Below, in pieces: positions 14,966 to 17,844 of a stretch of 64,000 nucleotides of DNA. Source of the DNA: Marinomonas colpomeniae (GTDB lineage Bacteria; Pseudomonadota; Gammaproteobacteria; Pseudomonadales; Marinomonadaceae); contig NZ_JACYFC010000002.1 of NCBI RefSeq assembly GCF_014803385.1, positions 558,001 through 622,000 on the forward strand, read 5' to 3'. A model generated the notes under the pieces. That model searched no databases. It had not been told where the DNA came from and saw only the letters and a list, made by a program, of their open reading frames with translations. Position numbers and translations under genes: made by a program. Within the stretch, counting starts at the first letter, position 1, and each line of letters opens with the position of its first letter.

Positions 14966-15697
14966 CTAATCCAAATATCCGCCAATAGCTTGCAGTACTT
15001 CTTTGGTGTTTTTATCTGATACCCAAACTGCCAAGGCTGTTTTTTCTTGGCCCTTTTGTGGTATATCAGGCAATGCGACAGTCCATTGCTGATTACCTGG
15101 TAAAGAAAAATAGTTCAGCGCTACGAAGTCGTGGTTAAGCTGACGGTTTTTGTTTTCGCCTGCTTTGACCTTGGTGGTTAACCCCATTCCAAGATAGGTG
15201 ATGTGTAACTCTGTATTTTGCTTGTCCTTGTCGTTCAGTTTCAAAGTGCCACTGTAATTTACGTTCAATGTATTATTGTCGTTTAGCACAACATCCAATT
15301 CCCCCGATGTCCTGTCTAAAGTGGGCAGGGTTCTTTGTCCACGAAACCATGAACGCCATTCTTTGTTATCAACCACAAATCCTGGCGTATACATTTGGCT
15401 AATGTGTCCGAAACGAGCGTAATCCTGTTGACGTTGAGTGTGAACGGGAGAGGCAAAGGGGTCTTTCCAACCAATGTAGTCCCAGTAATCTACGTGGAAG
15501 GCGACAGGGATAAGACCATCAAATAACGCAGGGTCATCTTTTAATGTAGATAGCCATTTGTCTGCTGGTGGGCAGCTGCTACAACCTTCTGATGTATAAA
15601 GTTCGACAAGTTGCGCTTGCTTAGTTCCACTGTGCCACTCCTGCGCTTGAGCAAAAAGAGGTACTAATAATAAGCTGACGTGAAGTAAGGTTTTCAT
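14966..15697 (-). CDS. Secreted DUF1223 thioredoxin-like protein
   Basis: Protein of 243 residues with a Sec signal (LLHVSLLLVPLFAQAQ, cleavage near residue 19). The DUF1223 core is clear: VELYTSEGCSSCPPADKWLS, with a CSSC redox-like motif near residue 39, then PVAFHVDYWDYIGWKDPFA and YTPGFVVDNKEW. The family has a thioredoxin-like fold and unknown function; the CxxC suggests a periplasmic thiol role. It is monocistronic, convergent with the SDR gene. A GGAGCAACAAG ribosome binding region precedes the ATG. Confidence 0.9.
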   Translation of the reverse strand: MKTLLHVSLLLVPLFAQAQEWHSGTKQAQLVELYTSEGCSSCPPADKWLSTLKDDPALFDGLIPVAFHVDYWDYIGWKDPFASPVHTQRQQDYARFGHISQMYTPGFVVDNKEWRSWFRGQRTLPTLDRTSGELDVVLNDNNTLNVNYSGTLKLNDKDKQNTELHITYLGMGLTTKVKAGENKNRQLNHDFVALNYFSLPGNQQWTVALPDIPQKGQEKTALAVWVSDKNTKEVLQAIGGYLD

Positions 15698-15822
15698 CTT
15701 GTTGCTCCGCTGTGGTTTTATTATCTGAGTGCGAAAAAGAGAATCAGTTCCAGTAAAACCATGTATCTTAATTTTTTCGTATTAAGTACGGTGTTATTTA
15801 TCGAATGAGATATAAAGAGTTA

Positions 15823-15894
15823 ATGAGAGTATGAGAGTATGAGAGTATGAGAGTATGAGAGTATGAGAGTATGAGAGTATGAGAGTATGAGAGT
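15823..15894 (+). repeat. Nine perfect copies of an 8-bp repeat (ATGAGAGT) ending at a start codon
   Basis: Nine head-to-tail ATGAGAGT units with no mismatch, then the ATG of the SGNH hydrolase at 15895 as if beginning a tenth unit. Each unit contains an ATG that reads Met-Arg-Val-stop, and each TGA overlaps the next unit's ATG; the last overlaps the gene's own ATG. GAGAG inside each unit can act as a Shine-Dalgarno for a following ATG. Every frame through the array hits TGA every 24 bases, so the array is not translated through. Confidence 0.97.
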
Positions 15895-16563
15895 ATGAGT
15901 AACATTACTTCAAGTTCCGATTTAGCTGTGACACCGATGCCGCAGGAAACTATTTGGTGGTTACCGCGTCACGAAGAAAGGTTAGCGATCAAAGAGTCTA
16001 TGCCTCGTGTTGATTTGGTGTTTCTAGGTGACTCTATTACTCATGCTTGGGAAAATGAAGGTGCTGAGATTTGGAATGAGTTTTATGAACCGCGTTATGC
16101 GTTAAATTTAGGCTTTGATGGTGACTGTACAGAAAATGTTCTGTGGCGATTGGAACATGGTGAGGTGGATGGTATTCAGCCTAAATTACTTGTGTTGCTG
16201 ATTGGCACGAATAATTCAGGTCATCGACAAGATAAAGCAGAAGATACTGCAAAAGGCATTAAACAAATTTTGTCTGTGTTATCTGATAAATTGCCAGATA
16301 CCAAAATTTTGCTTTTGGCTATTTTTCCTCGTAGTGCAAAGCCAACGCAAAAGCTTCGAGTGTTAAACAATGCCATTAATCAAAAAATACAAAACTATGC
16401 AGACAATGAAGGAGTTTTTTATCTTGATATTAATGACTGCTTTTTGGATGAAGAAGGGCGATTAACTAGTAACGTGATGAATGATTTTTTGCACCCTAAT
16501 AAAAGACAATACAAAGTATGGGCAGAAGCAATAGAGAATCATATTGAAAAATTAATGGTGTAA
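15895..16563 (+). CDS. SGNH/GDSL-family hydrolase (PAF-acetylhydrolase-like)
   Basis: Esterase-fold protein of 222 residues without a signal peptide. Block I FLGDSITHAW carries the nucleophile Ser, LNLGFDGDCTENVLWRL holds the oxyanion Gly, IGTNNSGH is block III with the Asn, and NDFLHPNKRQY has the catalytic Asp-x2-His. The pattern resembles the PAF-acetylhydrolase beta/gamma subunit group, which act on small acyl esters or sugar acetates. The only plausible start is the ATG that directly follows nine 8-bp repeats; in-frame TGA lies at 15880. Repeat number could therefore tune initiation. It is monocistronic; natural substrate unknown. Confidence 0.9.
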   Translation: MSNITSSSDLAVTPMPQETIWWLPRHEERLAIKESMPRVDLVFLGDSITHAWENEGAEIWNEFYEPRYALNLGFDGDCTENVLWRLEHGEVDGIQPKLLVLLIGTNNSGHRQDKAEDTAKGIKQILSVLSDKLPDTKILLLAIFPRSAKPTQKLRVLNNAINQKIQNYADNEGVFYLDINDCFLDEEGRLTSNVMNDFLHPNKRQYKVWAEAIENHIEKLMV

Positions 16564-16631
16564 AGAGGCTGTGCCGTAGTAATTTAGATATTAGCGTTAT
16601 TAAAAATAAACTAAGTATAAATACGTAGTCC

Positions 16632-16752
16632 AATACGTATTTTCCGTTATCCTGTTCGGTATTCGTACGAATTGTTTACACAATCAGTAAGAGAGACTAT
16701 TAGCCTTGCTTGATCTCGTTAAACAATAATAAACAATATACGAACAGGATAA
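16632..16752 (+). promoter_or_regulatory. Palindrome-rich control region of the TakP-type TRAP operon
   Basis: Three elements lie upstream of the binding-protein gene. AATACGTATT (16632-16641) and ATTCGTACGAAT (16661-16672) are perfect palindromes. TTATCCTGTTCG (16647-16658) and CGAACAGGATAA (16741-16752) are a perfect 12-bp inverted pair 82 bases apart; the second arm ends 6 bases before the ATG. These could be sites for the NarL-type regulator encoded downstream. Confidence 0.5.
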
Positions 16753-16758
16753 TAAAAA

Positions 16759-17844
16759 ATGAAATCCTTAAAACTAACGACTTTAGTTGCTGCAGCAGCA
16801 GTAACGATCACTTCTCTTTCTATGCCAGCATTCGCTGCAGACAGAGTTTATAAATTAAAAATGGCCGAAACTTGGTCTTCTAATTTCCCTATCTTTGGTG
16901 ATGCGCCACGTAACATGGCGAGTATTGCTGAAAAAATGTCTAATGGACGTTTAAAAATCACCATTGATTCTGCCAACAAACACAAAGCACCTTTAGGTGT
17001 ATTTGATATGGTTCGTTCTGGTCAGTATGACATGGGACATTCCGCTTCATATTACTGGAAAGGTAAAGTGGCGAACACTTTGTATTTCACTACTATGCCA
17101 TTCGGTATGACTACACCAGAGCAATATGGTTGGTTTTATGAAGGTGATGGTATGGAATTGATGCAAAAGGTTTATCAACCTTTTGGTCTATTGTCTTTTC
17201 CTGGTGGTAACACTGGTAATCAGATGGGCGGTTGGTTTCAAAAAGAAATCAACTCTCTTGATGACCTTCAAGGTCTGAAAATGCGTATTCCGGGTTTCGC
17301 TGGTGAAGTGATGGCGAAATTGGGCGCTAAGCCAACAAACATAGCATCTGGTGAACTTTATACTGCACTTGAACGTCGTACTATCGATGCTCTAGAGTGG
17401 GTAGGACCATCACTTGATCTACGTATGGGCTTCCACAAAATTGCACCTTACTACTACACTGGCTGGCATGAGCCTGCTACAGAGCTTCAATTCCTTGTGA
17501 ACGAACGTACTTGGAAAAAGCTTCCTGATGATCTTCGTGAAATTCTTCGTGTCTCTATGAAGCTTGCTTCTTATGACATGTATATCCAGTCTTACCACGA
17601 AAGTGCTGAAAACTGGGTAACGATGAAAACAGAATTCCCGAATGTTCAAGTGAAAACTTTCCCAAAAGAAGTATTGATGGCAATGAAAAAAGCCAATCAA
17701 GAACTACTTGATGAGAAAGCCGCTGCAGACCCTCTTGCAAAAGAGATTCTTGATTCACAAGCGGAATACATGAAGAAAGCACGTGTTTGGACGAACATCT
17801 CTGACCGAGCTTACCTTGATAGTATTGATGATCTAGCAAATTAA
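16759..17844 (+). CDS. TRAP transporter substrate-binding protein, 2-oxo-monocarboxylate (TakP) type
   Basis: Periplasmic binding protein of 361 residues with a Sec signal ending AFA-AD near residue 26. The DctP/TakP fold is shown by LKMAETWSSNFP, SASYYWKGK, PGGNTGNQMGGWF, LQGLKMRIPGFAG with the carboxylate-binding Arg, and ALEWVGPSLDLRMGFHK. The YYWKGK and EWVGP motifs are those of the TakP subgroup, which binds pyruvate, lactate and other 2-oxo or hydroxy monocarboxylates, often with calcium. The small and large membrane subunits follow. A strong hairpin separates this gene from them, as expected when the binding protein is made in excess. Confidence 0.88.
   Translation: MKSLKLTTLVAAAAVTITSLSMPAFAADRVYKLKMAETWSSNFPIFGDAPRNMASIAEKMSNGRLKITIDSANKHKAPLGVFDMVRSGQYDMGHSASYYWKGKVANTLYFTTMPFGMTTPEQYGWFYEGDGMELMQKVYQPFGLLSFPGGNTGNQMGGWFQKEINSLDDLQGLKMRIPGFAGEVMAKLGAKPTNIASGELYTALERRTIDALEWVGPSLDLRMGFHKIAPYYYTGWHEPATELQFLVNERTWKKLPDDLREILRVSMKLASYDMYIQSYHESAENWVTMKTEFPNVQVKTFPKEVLMAMKKANQELLDEKAAADPLAKEILDSQAEYMKKARVWTNISDRAYLDSIDDLAN

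Follow-up and report, generated by a model that had tools for sequence, protein, structure and literature searches.

An octanucleotide array that forms a start-stop ladder into a hydrolase gene of Marinomonas colpomeniae

The closest precedents for short tandem repeats directly before a bacterial start codon are the TAACTGA heptamers and the AGAT repeats of uspA2. TAACTGA direct repeats occur in marine Beggiatoaceae, some Cyanobacteria and Bacteroidetes; in Beggiatoaceae they lie mostly within several nucleotides of start codons with all forward frames closed, some arrays overlap the stop of the upstream gene, an SD sequence is also present in about 10% of the intergenic regions that bear them, and a translational role was proposed by the author (MacGregor 2015, PMC4679880). 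According to that paper, repeats located between promoter and start codon have been studied by experiment in two cases, uspA1 and uspA2 of Moraxella. The uspA2 repeats, in the 5' leader of the Moraxella catarrhalis gene, vary in copy number among strains, and by experiment this alters expression (PMC4679880).

Other repeats act at the level of DNA. Repeats in a leader or promoter that act on transcription have been described and promoter-side repeat rheostats are established (PMC3899988, PMC4081817), and tandem octamers upstream of genes in Geobacter were predicted to be regulator sites (PMC2700814). A further point of comparison is the ATGA overlap between genes, a geometry for re-initiation that has been tested experimentally in bacteria (Huber 2019, PMC6728339; Huber 2023, PMC10666635). 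Re-initiation takes place at overlapping stop-starts in both E. coli and Haloferax and needs no more of the upstream gene than its final 15 nt, and gaps of about 20 nt nearly abolish it in Haloferax, as gaps of about 38 nt nearly or fully do in E. coli (PMC10666635); removal of the SD motif lowered re-initiation in four of five E. coli gene pairs (PMC6728339).

The locus described here lies in a 64,000-nucleotide window (the whole stretch of DNA that was analysed) and carries nine perfect copies of ATGAGAGT that lead into a gene for a GDSL/SGNH hydrolase. It resembles the TAACTGA repeats in that forward tandem units stand directly 5' of a start codon, in the SD position, with stops in all frames; it differs in that TAACTGA holds no ATG and hence makes no mini-ORFs, and in that the one heptamer occurs at 169 sets in one genome, whereas here one octamer, ATGAGAGT instead of TAACTGA, is found at one locus of its genome, G000 (PMC4679880). 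With the uspA2 repeats it shares the tandem, frame-neutral arrangement; the uspA2 unit holds no ATG, and its effect was found by experiment, whereas any effect of the window array would be a prediction from its sequence (PMC4679880). With the ATGA gene overlaps it has in common the 4-nt stop-start overlap at each step; those, however, join two real genes in a single step, and here nine three-codon frames stand in series with no upstream gene (PMC6728339, PMC10666635). Ladders before phage terminase genes (L109, L111, L184, L192; see below) likewise bring tandem ATGA units straight into a gene, terL having ATGACC as its own start; unlike the window, they have a co-oriented upstream gene and both 7- and 8-bp units. 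An earlier sequence-only reading of the window held that no control element of this form had been described, which is too strong given TAACTGA and uspA2 (PMC4679880). The part without precedent is the start codon in every unit, found in no paper of the open-licence literature searched, and those searches returned no described start-stop ladder.

The array and the start of the hydrolase gene

The features of the locus, in window coordinates, are:

14966..15697, minus strand: divergent neighbour, DUF1223 protein (PF06764, E 2.9e-48)
15758..15822, plus strand: leader/intergenic DNA directly 5' of the array, without counterpart in syntenic G068, with TATAAA at 15811-15816
15823..15894, plus strand: tandem array of nine perfect ATGAGAGT copies, each a three-codon frame M-R-V-stop with its TGA overlapping the ATG that follows
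15895..15899, plus strand: partial tenth repeat copy, the gene's own ATGAG including the start codon; the TRF array ends at 15899
15895..16563, plus strand: GDSL/SGNH hydrolase gene, 222 aa (PF13472, E 5e-27)
16759..17844, plus strand: downstream neighbour, DctP-type TRAP solute-binding protein; G068 and G020 have the same gene order

TRF gives period 8, 9.6 copies and 100% matches over 15823-15899, the highest score among the 18 rows for the window; the count is 9.6 because the gene's own ATGAG makes a partial tenth copy. TRF and direct reading of the sequence both bear out that nine perfect units end at the hydrolase ATG, where the array runs straight into ATGAGTAAC, the start of the gene. 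The ladder that had been read from the sequence is likewise present in all nine units: each reads ATG AGA GTA TGA, its TGA falls within the ATGA of the unit after it, and that of the last unit overlaps the gene ATG at 15895. All three frames are closed throughout the array, and a change in copy number leaves the frame of the gene unshifted, as had been proposed, and the near context of the start codon unaltered. The start at 15895 is backed by the closest orthologue, in G002, which is 86% identical, matches from residue 1 and begins ATGAGT at the same place; the DNA upstream of it does not match the upstream DNA of the window.

As a long simple sequence repeat (unit 5-11 nt), the array is longer than chance allows: about 1.4e-36 lag-8 runs like it are expected per 64 kb with independent bases, and a chance origin is ruled out by this expectation. 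A sample of 464 kb from this genome, made up of the window and 20 stretches of 20 kb each, contained a single further perfect tandem array (at least 3 copies and at least 18 nt, periods 2-12), a 7-mer repeated over 21 nt, and a search of the entire genome for a further ATGAGAGT array returned none. A family of such arrays within this genome is ruled out, the array being single there.

The ladder is a matter of arithmetic. With a period of 8 and ATGA in the unit, the frame from an ATG reaches TGA at offset 9, equal to offset 1 in the unit that follows, and therefore any tandem 8-bp unit that holds ATGA makes the same start-stop ladder. ATGA is present in 4.2% of random 8-bp units, and 156 of 282 ATG-start genes sampled from the same genome begin with ATGA; where a repeat grows through a start codon, a ladder is expected in about half of cases.

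GAGAG in each unit had been taken to mimic a ribosome binding site. SD-like pairing does exist, and to that extent the claim stands, but the site is a poor one: with the standard anti-SD ACCUCCUUA the duplex energy is -3.1 kcal/mol, identical for units 3-9 and the gene, and 64% of 307 gene starts (the longest frames, at least 200 codons, with the start picked by a simple rule) are stronger. The medians for comparison are -4.0 kcal/mol for these gene starts and -2.1 for 6,506 internal ATGs. Depletion of a rare tRNA by the mini-ORFs is unlikely with AGA at 12.3% of Arg codons (5.4 per 1000). In folding, the 61- and 108-nt pieces across the start are weaker than shuffles, an 80-nt piece that is almost all array is stronger (-6.6 vs -1.25 kcal/mol), and the array as single-stranded DNA shows no fold.

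The array abuts the start codon, and a scan of 15600-16800 placed no promoter-like site above its threshold (shuffles give 4.4). TATAAA ends 6 nt before the array; by eye, there is no -35-like hexamer at 16-18 nt from it. The upstream neighbour is divergent, and therefore no co-oriented gene feeds ribosomes to the array; of the elements of termination-reinitiation, the locus has the stop/start overlap (ATGA) and lacks a co-oriented translated upstream gene, a part that only the mini-ORFs could play here. Within the same intergenic region, a block at 15722-15752 is conserved in G068 and reads, on the minus strand and towards the DUF1223 gene, TGGAAC, 18 nt, TCAGATA; it resembles the consensus of an ECF-type promoter.

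The array and other ladders among relatives and phages

Some SGNH match is present in 44 of 48 genus genomes, part of them weak matches to a domain of long proteins, and the orthologue set comprises 31 full-length genes including the window's own (G008, with the gene in pieces at a contig start, is excluded from the count). A comparable tandem array was found upstream of none of the other 30 genus orthologues, nor upstream of the gene in G049 outside the genus, which rules out a conserved element of the hydrolase gene. The intergenic DNA of the window matched only itself among the 48 genus genomes (1/48), and no conspecific DNA was found in the genome set, with its one genome per species. DUF1223 is present in four of the 48, and the order DUF1223-SGNH-DctP is retained in G068 and G020. 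In G068 (77% complete) the region is alignable to about 15757 and has a short leader ending TTTATGAAAGAGATGTCT; at this place the window carries the array and, ahead of it, 65 nt that are mostly unaligned. A near-repeat such as ATGAAAGAG-ATG could have been the starting point for ATGAGAGT-ATGAG. All this makes the array look recent and confined to its lineage, unlike a conserved control site.

Three copies of ATGAGAGT occur at seven stretches in the species-genome collection, all from other groups of organisms (the search may omit records close to that of the window), and by eye none of them runs into a gene start as here within the 150-nt flanks. In these unrelated bacteria the triplets sit, by eye, among irregular TGAGAG-like octamers (L001, L005, L006, L007), with complementary octamers downstream in L001 and L005; in L007 the array lies within an inverted repeat ahead of a frame that we take to be parA-like.

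Ladder motifs of 8 bp are no more common than a control. A run of five ATGA spaced 8 nt apart is present in 3 of 48 genomes of the genus and in 7 of 398 of the phylum, and the reversed 8-bp control pattern in 6 of 48 and 11 of 398, G000 being included in all four counts; enrichment of the 8-bp ladder motif is rejected, with no excess over the reversed motif in the genus, phylum or viral counts. Neither of the other two 8-mer ladders of the genus, (ATGATAGG)7 in G028 and (ATGATAGA)8 in G029, lies at a gene start, and two of six further phylum arrays lie near a possible start. In one of these (G142, L065, 1501-1540) (ATGATCGC)5 ends 14-20 nt before a possible GTG/TTG start of a 493-codon frame, with GGAGG between; in the other (G101, L064, 1501-1540) (ATGAAAAC)5 ends 8 nt before a 318-codon frame. 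For 7-bp units, four of the 48 genus genomes have the ladder pattern and two have its control. Of the four arrays read, that of G013 runs into a gene, that of G023 is not before a co-oriented gene, in G067 the last units open a 228-codon frame for which a later start is possible, and in G027 a 104-codon frame begins 55 nt beyond the array. Such arrays are abundant in certain species of the genus; over the whole genome, the reversed control pattern has 60 matches in G063, and 7- and 8-bp arrays have many in G023.

Among viral contigs, distinct arrays were counted as lying at a frame start if the first start of a frame of at least 100 codons fell between the last unit and +15, with a control for 8-mers only. 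On the same strand this held for 5 of 68 8-mer ladders, 10 of 95 7-mer ladders and 12 of 69 8-mer controls, and on the opposite strand for 8 of 68, 17 of 95 and 4 of 69, respectively. The viral count gives ladders no special tie to gene starts and therefore favours a by-product. The chance that a frame of at least 100 codons has its first start at a given ATGA of the array strand is 2.5% (87/3,454); six of 71 array rows open such a frame, three of them near-identical contigs, with about two expected. Frames at L302, L305, L316, L326, L336, L365, L126 and L164, judged by eye, were not counted as genes.

One set of viral ladders precedes the phage terminase large subunit gene, terL (PF17288, E 2.2e-13; PF04466, E 1.8e-12):

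L109/L140/L159: (ATGACCCA)6 before the gene, then ATGACC
L111, 1536-1631: (ATGACCCA)12, then ATGACC
L184, before 1498: (ATGACCA)13, then ATGACC
L192: (ATGACTA)7, then ATGACC
L185: irregular series ATGAACTA-ATGAACCA-GTGAACAA-ATGAGC

Of 549 confirmed terL relatives 80 were kept; 6 rows of the 78 examined have a tandem array of at least 20 nt, the ladders above being among them (L199-L201 equal L109/L140/L159, L202 equals L184 and L258 equals L192; L235 has 20 nt). The frame upstream of terL is homologous between loci (L111 vs L181, 133 of 168 aligned residues; L111 vs L184, 156 of 168), and in L111 it extends into the ladder, where one of the TGAs closes it. The terL frame is open over 404 codons in L109, L140, L159 and L184; it is cut after 116 codons in L111, and the region in L192 has in-frame stops, so that these two array-bearing copies may be decaying. 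As judged by comparing these sequences, the ladder unit and copy number do change, between phages and not within one.

The second ladder at a gene start is in G013, another species of the genus (L281, minus strand), where (ATGAATA)7 stands directly before 1511 and leads into ATGAGTGATGAA, with which a 179-aa frame of the DinB family begins (PF05163, E 2.6e-27). Each unit gives M-N-N-E-TAA, with the TAA overlapping a later ATG as TAATG. The array fills the 55-nt gap between two co-oriented genes and leaves no SD-like site; the stop of the upstream 161-codon frame, which we take to be an acetyltransferase, is 6 nt before it. The end of this frame is alike in G009, G004 and G032, where a short spacer with a AGGAGAGGG- or AAGGGAGGG-like site and without an array follows (11 of 30 fetched loci were read). 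The G013 codon aligned with the ATG of the relatives is a GTG 12 nt into the frame, and the true start of the DinB-family frame could be there.

Slippage, ribosome relay and action on DNA as possible explanations

Combining these data, we suggest that the array is a young octanucleotide repeat in the ribosome-binding position, probably born of slippage, that the ladder is a by-product, and that output is nearly flat in copy number, an explanation in which we have somewhat more confidence than doubt. It would comprise the following steps: (i) replication slippage would probably have made an octamer repeat grow across the ATGAG at which the gene starts; (ii) as the last 72 nt before the hydrolase gene, the array would have replaced its ribosome-binding region in this species; (iii) the start-stop ladder would have come with an 8-bp unit that holds ATGA; (iv) ribosomes would start at the gene ATG or at one of the last few units, followed by one to three AUGA re-initiation steps; and (v) output would be nearly flat above a few units and would drop only if the array shrank to about one copy. 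In favour of this explanation are the perfect array, its being single in the genome and absent at 30 orthologues, the short leader in G068, the commonness of ATGA at gene starts, control motif arrays that are as many or more, and the poor folding across the start. Against it are the recurrence of ladders that run into gene starts (G013 and phage terL), the 7-bp pattern (4 vs 2 of 48) and the 80-nt array piece that folds better than shuffles.

Alternatively, and in our judgement rather unlikely, the array is a functional hypermutable ribosome relay, an idea of the sequence-only reading that is here extended to other loci: ribosomes would enter at the 5' units or arrive from an upstream gene and pass from AUGA to AUGA into the gene, with slippage setting the number of steps and expression graded and reversible. 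The ladder satisfies the distance rule for re-initiation at every step, ATGA overlaps being re-initiation sites in E. coli (PMC10666635); the effect of SD removal in the E. coli pairs is a point against an SD-poor ladder (PMC6728339). The relay would also fit G013, where the array occupies the whole gap between genes, and terL, where the L111 upstream frame ends within the ladder and the copy number of the 8- or 7-bp units is 6, 12, 13 or 7 in related loci; the possible decay of L111 and L192 and the 8-bp motif counts speak against it. In a toy model with loading at the 5' end only, output is r^n, and nine steps at a re-initiation probability of 0.5 would leave 0.2%; if every unit loads, output would climb to a plateau by about 1/(1-r) units, which is not a graded response. 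The neighbour in the window is divergent, so that no ribosomes would come from a gene, and therefore a funnel or plain initiation is likelier than a relay and copy number should matter little. A relay would be more natural for G013 and the phages than for the window.

A quite improbable alternative is that the array acts on DNA, either because promoter or regulator sites are spaced by its length or because the 8-bp direct repeats bind a protein. Transcription-acting repeats in leaders and promoters (PMC3899988, PMC4081817) and the predicted octamer sites of Geobacter (PMC2700814) provide precedents; here, however, there is no second ATGAGAGT array in the genome and so no regulon, the scan of 15600-16800 scored no promoter-like site, and an array that adjoins the start codon is downstream of any usual promoter. 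A leaderless message, with transcription from TATAAA starting at or next to 15823 so that the first ladder AUG is the 5' end and whole ribosomes load, would fit the 6-nt spacing and is very improbable, with no site at the scan threshold and no -35-like hexamer.

Returning to our preferred explanation, a slippage-born repeat whose ladder is a by-product, the array would even so be a natural test bed: it offers identical start modules every 8 nt without an effect on frame, so that the choice of AUG by ribosomes is measurable. A broader proposition, which we put forward tentatively and think unlikely, is that start-stop ladders constitute a recurrent hypermutable class of translation leaders, in which units that hold ATGA (or make TAATG) would take over the ribosome-binding region of unrelated bacterial and phage genes and gather ribosomes, or pass them on, through re-initiation at successive overlaps without an SD, with slippage altering length and unit and the stop-start chain being kept. 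Two findings, the ladders of G013 and of phage terL, keep this proposition in play, and these loci, with relatives that have no array or another copy number, make the question directly testable. If ladders do carry ribosomes, serial re-initiation on three-codon frames would work in bacteria, and slippage could tune translation without switching a gene off.
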